Source of the DNA: Niveispirillum irakense DSM 11586
GTDB taxonomy: Bacteria > Pseudomonadota > Alphaproteobacteria > Azospirillales > Azospirillaceae
Reading direction: 5' to 3'
Assembly (NCBI RefSeq): GCF_000429645.1
Contig: NZ_KE386933.1
Location: 558,001-622,000 of the forward strand
Length of the DNA stretch: 64,000 nt
Shown: positions 7,929 to 13,707 of the stretch, piece by piece
Layout of the letters: each line of letters begins with the position of its first letter
How positions within the stretch are numbered: position 1 is the stretch's first letter
The notes under the pieces: generated by a model
Seen by the model: only the letters and a program-made list of their open reading frames with translations
The model's database searches: none
Told to the model about the DNA's origin: nothing
Made by a program: the position numbers and the translations under genes

Positions 7929-8368
7929 TGGCGGGCCCCGTAATTCACCAGCACCACCGGCATGTCGCGGTGGCTGGTGGTGGTGGACGGAACAGCGGCG
8001 ATCTGTGCTTCAGGCGCCGGCATCGGAGCCTGATGGCGCGGCGCGCCCGGCTTGCGGCCGGGAATGGGGGTGAGCGGGGCGGCTTCGCCCGGCTGGCGAT
8101 CAGGAATGTCGGTCAGCATGGCGATCTGTTCGGCCTTGGTGTGGCCAAGCAGCAGATGCTGCGCGCTCATCTTCTCCAGGGCGGCGGGGTCGTTCAGATA
8201 GGCCCATTCCGCTTTAAGCACCTGGATATTGGCATGCTCCGCCCGGATTTCCCGGTTCAGGCGCGCCAGTTCACGCTCCTGTTCCTGCGCCTTGTAGCTG
8301 GTCTGGTACAGGATGCCGCTGGCGGCGCAGGTGACGCCAATCCAGATGATGGTGGACTTGCCGATCAT
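7925..8368 (-). CDS. ftsL: FtsL-like cell-division protein
   Basis: Small bitopic division protein of the FtsQLB complex, which activates FtsWI. The protein has 147 residues. A membrane segment at about residues 6-21 ([19 protein letters not shown]) is followed by a coiled coil (about 25-65, [20 protein letters not shown]) and the alphaproteobacterial block [19 protein letters not shown]. The C-terminal 50 residues are proline/alanine rich and poorly conserved. FtsL sequences diverge quickly, so the call rests on topology, the EWAYLNDP block and position between rsmH and ftsI. It has 4-base overlaps with both neighbours. Confidence 0.9.
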
Positions 8369-9330
8369 GCGGGTTCTCCCGTCGACCAGGCGGGGGCCTG
8401 GGTGCGGATGGCGGTGCGCAGCCGGGCGGACCGGGCGCGCGGGTTGGCGGCCTGCTCGGCGTCCGAGGCGGCGGTGCCGGACTTGGACAGCAGGCGGAAA
8501 GTGGGCGCGGGGCCGGCGGTGACCGGTCCCGGTACATGGCGCGACGGCGACGGCACATTGCCCGACCGCTGGCGCATGAATTCCTTCACCACACGGTCTT
8601 CCAGCGAATGGAAGGTGACGACGCAGAGCCGGCCGCCAGGAACCAGCAGCCTTTCGGCGGCTTCCAGCGCACGCTCCAGCTCGCCCAACTCGTCATTCAC
8701 ATGGATGCGCAGCCCCTGGAAGCTGCGGGTGGCCGGGTCGATCCCATCCTTGGACTTCGGTACGCAGCCCCGGATGACCTCTGCCAGCTCCAGCGTGCGG
8801 GTGAAGGGCTTTTCGGTGCGGCGGGCGACGATGGCGCGGGCGACGCGGCGCGACATCCGTTCCTCGCCATAGCGATAGAAAATGTCGGCCAGATCCGATT
8901 CTTCGGCACTGTTCACCACATCGGCGGCGGTGGGCCCGTCATCGCCCATGCGCATGTCCAGCGGGCCGTCGAAGCGGAAGCTGAAACCGCGTTCCGGCGT
9001 GTCGATCTGGGGGGAGGAGACGCCGATATCCAGCACGATGGCATCGACGCCCCGCACGCCCTGGGCTGTCAGCAGGCTTTCCATGTCGCCAAAGCAGCCG
9101 CGCAGCACGCGCAGCCGGCCACCATAGGCGGCTTCCAGCGGGCGGGCGCGTTCCAGGGCGGCCGGGTCGCGATCAATGCCCCAGACGGTGCAGGCGGCGC
9201 TGTCCAGCAGGGCGCGGCTATAGCCACCGGCGCCAAACGTGCCATCCACAAGGGTGGCGCCGTCGGTCACGGCCATGGCGTGAACCACTTCATGCAGCAG
9301 AACAGGGATATGAACCGGCCCTGTCATCAT
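8365..9330 (-). CDS. rsmH: 16S rRNA (cytosine(1402)-N(4))-methyltransferase RsmH
   Basis: SAM-dependent methyltransferase that modifies C1402 of 16S rRNA in the decoding centre; formerly mraW. The protein has 321 residues, normal length. Signatures are [13 protein letters not shown] at the N-terminus, the SAM-binding block [34 protein letters not shown], and [13 protein letters not shown] near residue 230. The start may be either of two adjacent ATGs (9330 or 9327). It overlaps the mraZ stop by 4 bases and the ftsL start by 4 bases. Confidence 0.97.
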
Positions 9331-9812
9331 GCCCCCTTCGCCAGGCTCTTGGCCTTGGCCAGGATGGTGGACAGGGAGATGTTGTTGGCGCGCGCGATTT
9401 CCCGCTTCGCCTTGTCATGCTGCTCGAACAGGACCGGATCCCACAGATGGAACGTGTTGCGTGTGCCGACGAAGGAGATGTTCTCCGTGATGCCGGCATA
9501 GGTGAGGAGATGTTCGGGCAGGATCACCCGGCCTTCCGGGTCGAGCGCCAGTTGAACCGACCGGCCGAACACGGCTGTGTCGATCAGGTCCCGGTCTTCG
9601 TCCGGCACATTCGGATTTTCCAGGGCTTCGGCCAGCTTTTCCAAGTAGGAGTAGGGGGCCGCTTCCAGCGCCTGGGCCTGCAGGGATGGGAAAATGACCA
9701 TGCCTACGGTGCCCGCCTGTCCTGCCGCCAAGGTCGCGCGAAAGGGTGCGGGGATGGATACCCGTCCTTTCTTGTCAACCTTGTTGACATATGTTGACAG
9801 GAACAAGCCCAT
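9327..9812 (-). CDS. mraZ: MraZ, transcriptional regulator of the division/cell-wall cluster
   Basis: AbrB-fold DNA-binding protein that usually represses its own dcw operon. I chose the ATG at 9812 ([20 protein letters not shown]), the conserved family start, with GGGGCG just upstream; the frame opens further to 9860. The resulting 161 residues are typical. Both SpoVT/AbrB-like repeats are visible: [15 protein letters not shown] near the N-terminus and [19 protein letters not shown] near residue 95, followed by the [13 protein letters not shown] segment. It is the first gene of the operon; candidate MraZ boxes lie 126-149 bases upstream. Confidence 0.96.
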
Positions 9813-9937
9813 CACGCCCCGCCCTGTGGCACCATCACCGGTGCCGCCCCGCCATCTCACCCGATCAAATCGCCTCCGAGCGGTCCTGGGGGAGGGCCGG
9901 CAGGGTGGGCAGCAATGATCTGTGAACCCCCTTCGTT

Positions 9938-9961
9938 TGGGTTTTTATGGGATATCATGGG
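9938..9961 (+). promoter_or_regulatory. Three TGGG repeats on a 10-bp period, candidate MraZ operator
   Basis: TGGG occurs at 9938, 9948 and 9958, with units TGGGTTTTTA, TGGGATATCA and a final TGGG. Escherichia coli MraZ recognises TGGGN direct repeats separated by five bases, which is the same 10-bp period. The array lies 126-149 bases upstream of the mraZ start and overlaps a possible mraZ promoter, which suits autorepression. The repeats read on the plus strand while mraZ is on the minus strand, so orientation is the weak point. Confidence 0.62.
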
Positions 9962-9978
9962 CCAGGATTGACGGTCAA
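9949..9978 (-). promoter_or_regulatory. Possible mraZ promoter (weak)
   Basis: On the minus strand, TTGACC (9978-9973) is followed after 18 bases by TATCCC (9954-9949). The -35 element is good for an alphaproteobacterial housekeeping promoter; the -10 matches only in its first three bases. It overlaps the TGGG array. No better candidate was seen closer to mraZ. Confidence 0.3.
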
Positions 9979-10237: not shown

Positions 10238-10450
10238 AGCATCGAATAAGCATCAAAAATCGAAGTAATATCCTGACTCTGGCAAGAGTTATCTATATAT
10301 GGTGTCTTGTGATGGTTAATAGGCAATATATATGGTGGATTCGCGCTGATTTGCCGGCCAAAAAGCTTGGCAAATGCTGGGTCGTAGGACACGCCCCGCC
10401 TCAACCGCTCAAGCGGTGAAAATAGTTACATGTGGTTAACATAGTAAAAT

Positions 10451-10878
<428 letters not shown>

Positions 10879-10886
10879 CAGGCGTT

Positions 10887-11687
10887 CTAGGCGTCGCGCT
10901 TATCAAATGCAACAGTTCCGGTGGTTTCCTGGCGGATCAGCGCGCGCAGGGCAGCCACGCTTGGTTCATCCGCCCCGCGGCCCAGGCTGCCGGGGCACCA
11001 GTGACGTTGGAACGCGACCAGGGCCATTTCGGCCTTTTCATCCCATAAAATCCCAAATGGCCTTTTTCCGTCCCATGAAATCCCATGGGGGACGTCGCTG
11101 GCGGCTGTTTCATAACCCAGGTGTCCCAGAAGAAGCCGAACTTCGCCCAAATCAGCGGGTCGGTGATCATCCGGGCACGGCGCCGGCCAGATGCCGATGC
11201 CGGCGTCGGCCAGGGCTTTCCACTCAAACAGCTCGCCGGGATCCTGCTTCCGGCCGGGCGCCACATCGGAATGGCCCAGCACCCGTAGCGGCTGGATAGC
11301 ATGCCGTGAACAGATATCCTGCGCCAGTGCTGCCAGCGCCGTCATCTGGGCGCGGGGGAAAGGCCGATAGCCCCATTCATGCCCCGGATTGACGAGTTCG
11401 ATCCCGATCGACCGGCTGTTAATATCCGTTTCGCCCCGCCAATAGGCCCGGCCCGCATGCCAGGCCCGGCGATCCTCCGCGACCAGACGGTAGATGGTGC
11501 CGTCTTCGTCAATCATGTAATGCGCGCTGACCTCCGCCGCGGGGTCGCACAGCCGGTGCAGGGCGCCGGCCGCATCCGGCATTCCCGTATAATGCAGCAG
11601 CAGCATATCCGGCGCGCCGCCCAGGCGGGGCCCATGATTGGGGCTGGGATGGTCGATCAGGGGCGGCATGGCATTGATGTCGGACAT
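10887..11687 (-). CDS. N-acetylmuramoyl-L-alanine amidase, AmiD/AmpD type with peptidoglycan-binding tail
   Basis: Zinc amidase that cleaves the MurNAc-L-Ala bond of peptidoglycan or anhydro-muropeptides. The protein has 266 residues. The Amidase_2 fold covers about 15-175: the first zinc ligand region MLLHYTGMP, AHYMIDEDGTIYRLV, a conserved AWHAG, NSRSIGIELVNPGHE and the C-terminal zinc motif LGHSDVAPGRKQDPG. A PG-binding-like tail (about 180-255) contains DEKAEMALVAFQRHW. Between these blocks sits an apparent in-frame insert, VPHGISWDGKRPFGILW, encoded by a TGGG decamer array (11042-11085). No signal peptide is evident. The gene is followed by rnpB on the same strand. Confidence 0.9.
   Translation of the reverse strand: MSDINAMPPLIDHPSPNHGPRLGGAPDMLLLHYTGMPDAAGALHRLCDPAAEVSAHYMIDEDGTIYRLVAEDRRAWHAGRAYWRGETDINSRSIGIELVNPGHEWGYRPFPRAQMTALAALAQDICSRHAIQPLRVLGHSDVAPGRKQDPGELFEWKALADAGIGIWPAPCPDDHRPADLGEVRLLLGHLGYETAASDVPHGISWDGKRPFGILWDEKAEMALVAFQRHWCPGSLGRGADEPSVAALRALIRQETTGTVAFDKRDA
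11042..11085 (-). repeat. Decamer array TGGGATTTYA inside the amidase gene
   Basis: On the coding (minus) strand TGGG begins at 11085, 11075, 11055 and 11045, all in one 10-bp register, with the unit at 11065 degenerate. The units TGGGATTTCA and TGGGATTTTA closely match TGGGATATCA and TGGGTTTTTA upstream of mraZ. The array is read in frame as part of the amidase. Confidence 0.7.
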
Positions 11688-12000
11688 AGCCCTCTCAACC
11701 TGCGTGATGGCACCCGCATTGTCGATCCACTGTTTTCAGCCATCCGTCCCGCCATGGCGGCCTGGATTGATCAGTAGTCCTTATAGCGCTCGCGACATGG
11801 CCTGTCCGGTACGGATGGGGCAGGTCGCCTATGTGGCACCAAGTGGACCTTTGCGCCCATGTCATACTCCTGCATGATCCGCTAACCCTCATCATTCGTA
11901 TAGGGTGCTGGACGTGGATTTATCATCGACGCCGCTTAAATTTACATGCGCTTGAATGAGCCTTCGCAGTGAAAGCCCGGTATCTGCGAAGAGAGTTCAT
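11688..12000. other. Intergenic region between divergent amidase and chemoreceptor genes
   Basis: The 313 bases hold no gene I can support. The right half becomes AT-richer (around 11880-11960) and probably carries the promoter of the chemoreceptor gene, but no confident -35/-10 pair was identified. Confidence 0.5.
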
Positions 12001-13707
12001 ATGATTGCAGATAATGAAGAAGAGGAATTCAGCGTCATGACATATGCGATGCAGGCACAGGAAGCACAGGCACGGCGGCTTGCTTCCTTTAAAATTACCG
12101 AGGCCGACATTTCCATTATTCAGGACATGGGATCTGATTTTGCCCGTGACAGTCTGCCGGGCTTGCTGAAGCAGTGGCATTCCCGCTTCGCCGCCTGGCC
12201 GGAAATCCAGTCGGCCCTGGCCAGCCCCGATGTGCATGCAGTCCGGGTGGATCATTGGAAGCGGGCAGTATCTGGCCGGATCGATGCGGATTTTCTGGCC
12301 TCGGCCAACCGTCTGGCCAAGGCTTTCTTTGATAATAACGTCCCCGGATATGCCGTAGCCATCTGCCACAACACAGTGTTGAATGGCATTGCGGAGGCGC
12401 TGGGCCTTGATGATCCGGCGCGTACAGGGCTTTTCGGCAGGAGGGACGGGCGCAAACAGGCTTTGCGCCAGGCGTTGACCAAACTTGTCTGGCTGGACCT
12501 GGAACTGCTGCTGGAAACCTATGCCGAGGCGGAGCATGCCAGCCGGGCACAGGCCTTGAGCAAGATGGCCGAGACGGTGGAGCGGGAGGCCAGCATCGCC
12601 GTGGAACAGGTCGCATCCCGGACCAGCGGCATGGCGCGCGACGCGGAAGGCATGGCCGGTTCCGCCCAGCGTGTAGGGGCGAATGCCCAGGATGTGGCCG
12701 GTTCGGCGCGCGAGGCGTTGAATAATGCGCAGACGGTTGCCAGCGCCACGGAGCAACTGGTCGGTTCCATCCGGGAGATTGCCGGTCAGGTCGCCCATTC
12801 CAACAAGGTCACCCGGCAGGCGGTTCAGACCGGCGATCATGCCCATGCGACGATCCAGTCCCTGTCCGAAACGGTGGGGCGGATCGGCGAGGTGGCGCAG
12901 ATGATTTCCGATATTGCTGCCCAGACTAATCTTCTGGCCTTGAACGCAACGATTGAAGCGGCGCGCGCCGGGGAAGCAGGCAAAGGCTTTGCTGTTGTGG
13001 CGCAGGAGGTGAAGTCGCTGGCCAATCAGACGGCGCGGGCGACGGAGGATATTGCCGGTCAGATCACGGCGATCCAGACGGTCACCGAGTCAGCCGTGAA
13101 GGCCGTATCGGACATCGGGGCGGCGATTGATGAAATTGATCATGTTTCCAACGCCATCGCCGCCGCTATTGAGGAACAGTCTGCCGCGACGCAGGAGATT
13201 GGCCGGAATGTGGCTGCAACGTCCGCTGCCGTCAGGGATGTGAGCAATAATATCGCCACCGTCTCCGATGAAGCGCTCCGCACAGGTGAACAAGCGGCCC
13301 AGGTCAAGGCGGGTTCGGCAGATGTGGCGGGCAGCATCACGGATTTGCGGCGGGTGCTGGTCCGGGTCGTGCGCACCAGCACGGAGGAGGCCAACCGCCG
13401 CCGCAAACCCCGCTACACGGTGGACGAAATGTGCCTGCTCCAACTGGATGGGGCGGCGGCGCAAGAGGGGCGGCTGATTAATCTGTCCGAAGGTGGCGCC
13501 ATGATCCGGCTGGCACAGGGGAAAGCAATCGTGGGGGCTGATGGGCACCTGGCCTTGCCGCGCCTGCCGGCTTTTGCCACCCGCCTGCGTGTTCTGACGG
13601 TGGATCAGGAGACGGTGCATGTGAAATTCGATATTTCGGACAGTCAGGCTTCCTCCTTCCACCGCGCGTTCGATGAACTGACCCGCGGGCTGCCGGAAGC
13701 GGCGTAA
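12001..13707 (+). CDS. Soluble chemoreceptor with protoglobin-like sensor and C-terminal PilZ domain
   Basis: Cytoplasmic methyl-accepting chemotaxis protein with no membrane segment. An N-terminal globin-coupled-sensor-like domain (about residues 10-160, from [16 protein letters not shown] to [13 protein letters not shown]) leads to the MCP signalling helices with the hairpin tip [20 protein letters not shown] near 325. The C-terminal PilZ domain (about 460-560) has both c-di-GMP motifs, RRRKPR (RxxxR) and NLSEGG (NxSxxG). The usual proximal heme histidine of protoglobins is replaced: the aligned segment reads [15 protein letters not shown], with Phe where His is expected. The start is uncertain: ATG 12001 (AAGAGAG upstream) or ATG 12037 (AGAGGAA upstream). 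It would couple sensing to CheA and to c-di-GMP. Confidence 0.88.

Follow-up and report, generated by a model that had tools for sequence, protein, structure and literature searches.

Decamer arrays at the mraZ promoter and within a neighbouring amidase gene as putative main and auxiliary MraZ operators in an alphaproteobacterial family

The window analysed here, a whole stretch of 64,000 nucleotides from the genome of Niveispirillum irakense DSM 11586, carries on its minus strand the gene of an N-acetylmuramoyl-L-alanine amidase of the Amidase_2 type (10887-11687; Pfam PF01510, E 2.4e-41), rnpB, encoding the class A RNase P RNA (10448-10876; Rfam RF00010, 311 bits), mraZ (9327-9860) and rsmH (8365-9330). 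MraZ is a regulator conserved very widely among bacteria. The mraZ gene was identified through two stretches of Pfam PF02381 (E 1.5e-16) and was the single match in the genome; its start codon is probably an internal ATG near 9812. The encoded protein matches the solved entries 9sx6, 9sz7, 9qlg, 9r4j, 9qlr, 1n0e, 1n0f and 1n0g. The plus-strand product of 11956-13707 in the window combines protoglobin, chemotaxis signalling and PilZ domains; it may be a receptor that senses oxygen and has a domain of the c-di-GMP-binding type.

Two arrays of TGGG words were found in this region. Read along the amidase coding strand, TGGG recurs at offsets 0, 10, 30 and 40, giving two TGGG-N6-TGGG pairs in the C-terminal tail of the protein (residues about 201-216). 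Pair 1 (TGGGATTTCATGGG, 11072-11085, minus strand) lies in the amidase reading frame and codes for HGISWD, its assignment being supported by the register kept in relatives and by the codon test described below; pair 2 (TGGGATTTTATGGG, 11042-11055, minus strand), 30 nt from pair 1, codes for FGILWD. The other array (TGGGTTTTTATGGGATATCATGGG, 9938-9961), the putative main mraZ operator, lies on the plus strand, opposite to mraZ, and consists of three TGGG boxes with a 10-nt period. The two arrays are inverted with respect to each other and stand 1,080 bp apart with rnpB in between, the promoter boxes reading against mraZ and the amidase boxes reading with it. A sequence-only reading of the same DNA had described an array at 11042-11085 and a matching one upstream of mraZ, about 1.1 kb off and in opposite orientation, and both were located as described. 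TGGG-N6-TGGG occurs seven times in the 64-kb window, four of them within the two arrays. When up to one mismatch was allowed, TGGGATTTYATGGG had 7 sites in the 5.45-Mb genome, 4 of which fell in the two arrays, and its reversed control had 0 sites over the same 5.45 Mb; TGGGWNNNYATGGG had 9 sites in the genome (4 in the two arrays), as against 2 for its control pattern. The decamer array in the amidase gene is not a product of chance.

The array at 9938-9961 coincides with a putative promoter of mraZ. On the minus strand we read a candidate -10 element, TATCCC after TG-A, at 9949-9954, inside the main operator, and a candidate -35 element, TTGACC, at 9973-9978, 18 nt from the -10. This promoter was absent from the output of a generic promoter scan, which demands a T at the sixth position of the -10. 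An equivalent of the promoter-type array was present at all 58 mraZ loci of the family, and the spacer between its boxes read TGNTA[TC] on the mraZ strand at 53 of them, 47 of these having TTGAC at 17 or 18 nt ahead of the TAT. The same arrangement extends through the class, for which 100 genomes were taken from the 133 in which mraZ had a match: an array upstream of mraZ on the opposite strand was found at 90 of the 100 loci outside the family, with the TGNTA[TC] spacer in 62 of the 90 and TTGAC at 17 or 18 nt in 56 of the 62. It is thus likely, from the co-occurrence of these motifs, that the MraZ boxes interlock with the probable -35 (TTGAC) and extended -10 (TGnTAT) elements of the mraZ promoter in alphaproteobacteria, and since the promoter array covers the likely promoter core, bound MraZ should exclude RNA polymerase. 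In two loci of one family (L257 and L256; genomes G056 and G177) the usual promoter array is missing, and pairs on the mraZ strand, four in L257 and one in L256, lie ~570-690 nt upstream.

MraZ of Escherichia coli represses its own operon through MraZ boxes, as set out in an excerpt of PMC8475190, and in the E. coli array that we read these are likewise direct TGGG repeats with a 10-nt period upstream of mraZ. The boxes of Burkholderia cenocepacia, given in an excerpt of PMC7761207 as four 7-nt repeats with 3-nt spacers upstream of mraZ, have the same 10-nt period; MraZ of this species binds a fragment with the four repeats, and the excerpt states, by reference to work in Mollicutes, that MraZ is an octameric toroid. 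The amidase array of the window has the direct TGGG (GTG-type) repeats and the 10-nt period of the MraZ box, and a cognate mraZ is present and linked to it. The arrangement nevertheless differs from the known ones in two respects. The E. coli boxes are read with mraZ and lie close to its start codon, whereas the alphaproteobacterial TGGG words are on the opposite strand, over the likely promoter core; and while E. coli, Mollicutes and B. cenocepacia have a single array at the mraZ promoter, the family of the window adds pairs in flanking coding and RNA genes. The array at the promoter is the one at 9938-9961, and as the amidase array lies 1.1 kb upstream of mraZ in coding sequence, we term it auxiliary and not a promoter operator. 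The amidase array is very probably an MraZ site. A Rhodobacter site for NtrX, which in the excerpted text of PMC7240162 is also a regulator site upstream of an alphaproteobacterial mraZ, has a different proposed motif, GCA-n9-TGC, and NtrX was rejected as a candidate on this mismatch with the TGGG decamers.

The array had also been proposed to encode an insert in the amidase tail, and alignment bore this out. The segment that runs from LGY to FQRH is 36 residues long in the amidase of the window, and among the 27 of 32 aligned amidases that were compared it measured 26-43 residues in the 14 loci with pairs versus 13-21 residues in the 13 loci without. This loop is short in amidases of other genera; a longer loop, rich in GISWD, GKTWD or GTAWD, is found in the window's own genus and in three close genera. 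TGGG-N6-TGGG codes for the long loop in 14 of 14 loci, with one to three pairs in each and with the starts of neighbouring pairs 15, 24, 30 or 39 nt apart, and no such pair was present in that segment of the 13 amidases without the insert. None of the 27 loci had the same peptide without the TGGG period. In the AlphaFold2 model of the window's amidase, residues 200-209, part of the loop that carries the array, have a pLDDT below 50.

The codons of this loop were then compared with its amino acids. The residues encoded between the TGGG words vary (IS, IL, KT, TA, TP and TV) and the synonymous positions are constant; the second pair codes in relatives for GKTW, GISW or GTAW, yet TGGG-N6-TGGG is retained. 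The glycine of the G-x-x-W motif is encoded by GGG in 30 of 30 cases, and the form xxT-GGG was observed in 29 of 30, compared with 3.30 expected from the codon usage of the same loci, the 30 motifs coming from related genomes and hence not being 30 independent trials. Judged by these codons, the pattern is the reverse of what selection at the protein level would leave behind, and the array is kept by selection at the DNA level inside a coding sequence. In the MAG of a Rhodospirillales bacterium outside the family set (L035), one pair spans the amidase stop codon and another comes after it. The amidase match of G006 (L091 and L123) contains one in-frame TGA near its 3' end.

Related genomes were searched for further arrays. 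mraZ was found in 58 of the 59 family genomes searched, and its loci in these 58 made up the family set, which overlaps with a second set of 58 loci found via the amidase. Off-promoter pairs were counted on both strands from -2000 to -300 and from +100 to +1500, positions being relative to where the mraZ match begins and not to a proven start codon; consensus pairs were those with spacers flanked as W....A, and counts at other spacings and with scrambled tetramers were taken as controls. Consensus N6 pairs gave 154 matches in 52 of the 58 genomes and in 13 of 13 genera, against 0-14 for each of the other spacings between N2 and N16, and the count of 14 at N16 is that expected for boxes two periods apart. 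With any spacer, N6 gave 224 matches in 57 of 58 genomes and the other spacings at most 30 matches in at most 22 genomes. The control TGGC-N6-TGGC was also frequent, with 28 matches in 23 of the 58 amidase-found loci (mraZ strand, -2000 to -250). Counts are given by genus as well because the family genomes are related and not independent, genus g12 alone accounting for 22 of 58. No consensus match was found in six family genomes, namely G002, G006 and four of genus g6. In G002 and G006 the mraZ locus stops at a contig end, and the amidase array is on another contig (L119, L123); in g6, four of the five genomes were without a consensus auxiliary pair, with one (G060) interrupted by a contig end.

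The concentration of these sites around mraZ was measured with TGGGANNNCATGGG in 30 of 39 genomes; those left out were two without a site, five of genus g8, G012, with incomplete rows, and G066, which has 3 sites and in which no mraZ was found. Of the 144 sites in these 30 family genomes, 83 lay within 2.5 kb of mraZ, 29 of them at the promoter and 54 of them auxiliary, and the remaining 61 lay farther off, in 176 Mb, giving an auxiliary density near mraZ ~940 times that of the background when promoter sites are excluded. Across the class, a consensus off-promoter pair was present at only 8 of the 100 mraZ loci outside the family, and given this rarity the auxiliary sites are mainly a trait of this family.

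The arrays thus clustered near mraZ in 13 of 13 genera, at distances that differ by genus. In genera g1, g3, g10 and g13 the pairs lie in the amidase gene, and in g2, g4, g5, g7, most of g8, g9, g11 and g12 they lie upstream of mraZ, no more than about 600 bp away. A further pair at +850 to +970, in rsmH where annotated, was found in 28 of 58 genomes from 8 genera. The rsmH of the window has only a near-match, TGGGCGATGACGGG. Several relatives carry a box pair in a constant position of this gene, at LDMRM-G-x-[DH]-G, and the full pair was present in 13 of the 31 loci with those glycines versus 1.48 expected; as Met-Gly always yields the first TGGG, the peptide itself dictates part of the RsmH pair, and only the codon test counts. 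The near-match in the window's rnpB (AGGGACGGCATGGG, 10606-10619, minus strand) may only mirror the RNA sequence and was not counted. In L120, L124, L129 and L130, however, an rnpB pair (offset about 150-175) makes up the 3' side of a predicted variable hairpin that can still form a stem. Our first view of these pairs as conserved RNA sequence was dropped on the variation of the hairpin among relatives; as its sequence differs in four relatives folded alongside, the rnpB pairs of these loci are probably boxes.

Spacing and orientation were also compared. In genus g12 one same-orientation pair and the central promoter pair are separated by 284-286 bp, about 27 helical turns, in every one of the 22 genomes (L133, L136 and L137 among them), and in the same genus the central promoter pair is 87 to 108 bp from MraZ residue 1, a 21-bp range. 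Between genera the distances from auxiliary to main operator differ and share no obvious helical phase. Judged against the orientation of the promoter array, and with any spacer, 140 off-promoter matches were inverted (plus strand) versus 84 direct (minus strand). A second copy of the operator lies within looping range of the first and is conserved in relatives.

The extra pairs near mraZ at shifting places in relatives suggest that MraZ may act by DNA looping. Taken as a whole, the account that we favour, and which we hold to be probable, is that the amidase array is an auxiliary operator of the dcw (division and cell wall) autorepressor MraZ and is bridged to the promoter operator by looping. 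MraZ would bind both the promoter array and the amidase array, and on the promoter boxes it would block RNA polymerase. As MraZ probably forms a ring in which several subunits bind DNA, a single ring could hold two sites; some of its subunits would occupy the promoter boxes and others would capture the flanking pair, forming a loop that would measure about 1.1 kb in the window and between about 0.27 and 1.8 kb in its relatives. Such bridging would account for the free position of the pairs, for their need of the vicinity of mraZ, and for coding sequences yielding to the motif. Against the account stand the variation of the distances across genera without a shared helical phase, the absence of consensus auxiliary pairs from most g6 genomes, and their rarity in the rest of the class. 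Looping would raise the local concentration of MraZ and sharpen autorepression, as the lac auxiliary operators do for LacI. In the lac operon the auxiliary operators are O2, inside lacZ, and O3, and looping is brought about by LacI. The likeness between the two systems lies in weaker, distant operator copies, one of them in coding sequence, and in a multivalent repressor, the latter being drawn for MraZ here by analogy with the octamer reported elsewhere (PMC7761207, in excerpt). LacI, however, is a tetramer that reads palindromes and MraZ a ring that reads direct repeats and, unlike in lac, the amidase operator accompanies an extra peptide loop and the placement varies by genus.

Auxiliary boxes could also bind MraZ without looping, and serve as a local reservoir near the promoter or as a buffer of free MraZ. 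This explanation tolerates the wide variation of positions and distances across genera, and it is in keeping with the report, in an excerpt of PMC8475190, that an mraZ mutant of Mycoplasma genitalium was complemented only in cis. A pure reservoir, however, has no need for the lean towards inverted orientation, nor for the constant 284-286 bp in g12, where the distance of the main array from mraZ residue 1 is the one that varies, and we regard it as unlikely. Alternatively, the amidase array might act on its immediate surroundings as an operator or a roadblock, at which MraZ would halt read-through from the amidase gene into rnpB and mraZ or would tune rnpB. Its position agrees with this, 166-209 nt upstream of the 5' end of rnpB, with the amidase stop adjoining rnpB; elsewhere, however, the pairs lie downstream of rnpB, in rnpB or in rsmH, so that the common partner is mraZ and not rnpB, and a roadblock seems improbable here.

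Three other explanations were tried and set aside. The sequence-only reading had offered the amidase array as a captured MraZ operator, as a looping partner of the mraZ operator, or as a small mobile decamer element capable of in-frame entry into genes. The operator reading has become strong on comparative grounds and the looping partner is retained by inference; the mobile element is now barely credible. Its near-identical units at two places are what such an element would leave, but it was rejected on the genome-wide counts, which showed no dispersed near-identical copies. The sites are concentrated at mraZ, the spacer letters differ freely across sites and genera, the spacing from pair to pair varies (15, 24, 30 and 39 nt), and positions and spacers change with the genus instead of repeating one copied unit. 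That the peptide repeat GxxWD is itself selected for amidase function, with the DNA period as a by-product, would explain why 14 loci encode such similar motifs (GISWD, GKTWD, GTAWD). It is nevertheless very improbable, and was rejected on codon usage, which fixes synonymous positions while amino acids vary (29 of 30, against 3.3), and on the pairs at and after the stop codon of L035; the pairs in rnpB and intergenic DNA, and the low confidence with which the loop is predicted, also speak against it. A G-quadruplex has been proposed at the mraZ promoter of Staphylococcus aureus (PMC11796246, in excerpt), and the amidase array does contain four GGG tracts, but the loops of such a structure would be 7, 17 and 7 nt and it would not require exactly N6, whereas pairs at N5 or N7 are rarely seen. 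The G-quadruplex was rejected on this exact spacing, and we consider it extremely unlikely.

Returning to auxiliary operators bridged by MraZ, the account could be widened to the family, a step that we take tentatively and at slightly less than even odds. The MraZ ring would be a loop organiser, joining the promoter boxes to pairs in the amidase gene, rnpB, rsmH or intergenic DNA in at least one loop spanning rnpB and the beginning of the dcw cluster, and selection for operators would have written the amidase loop, fixed RsmH codons and rewritten a helix of the RNase P RNA. Among the titles listed by full-text literature searches none dealt with auxiliary MraZ operators or with MraZ looping, and the novelty of the proposal is judged from those searches. 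The DNA-binding site, and not the function of the protein, appears to dictate the peptide insertion in the amidase, which bears on how inserts and codon choice beside regulator genes are to be read. If the account is true, the lineage-specific auxiliary operators would give the MraZ ring a purpose, the bridging of two DNA sites, and would provide a natural system in which to test it.
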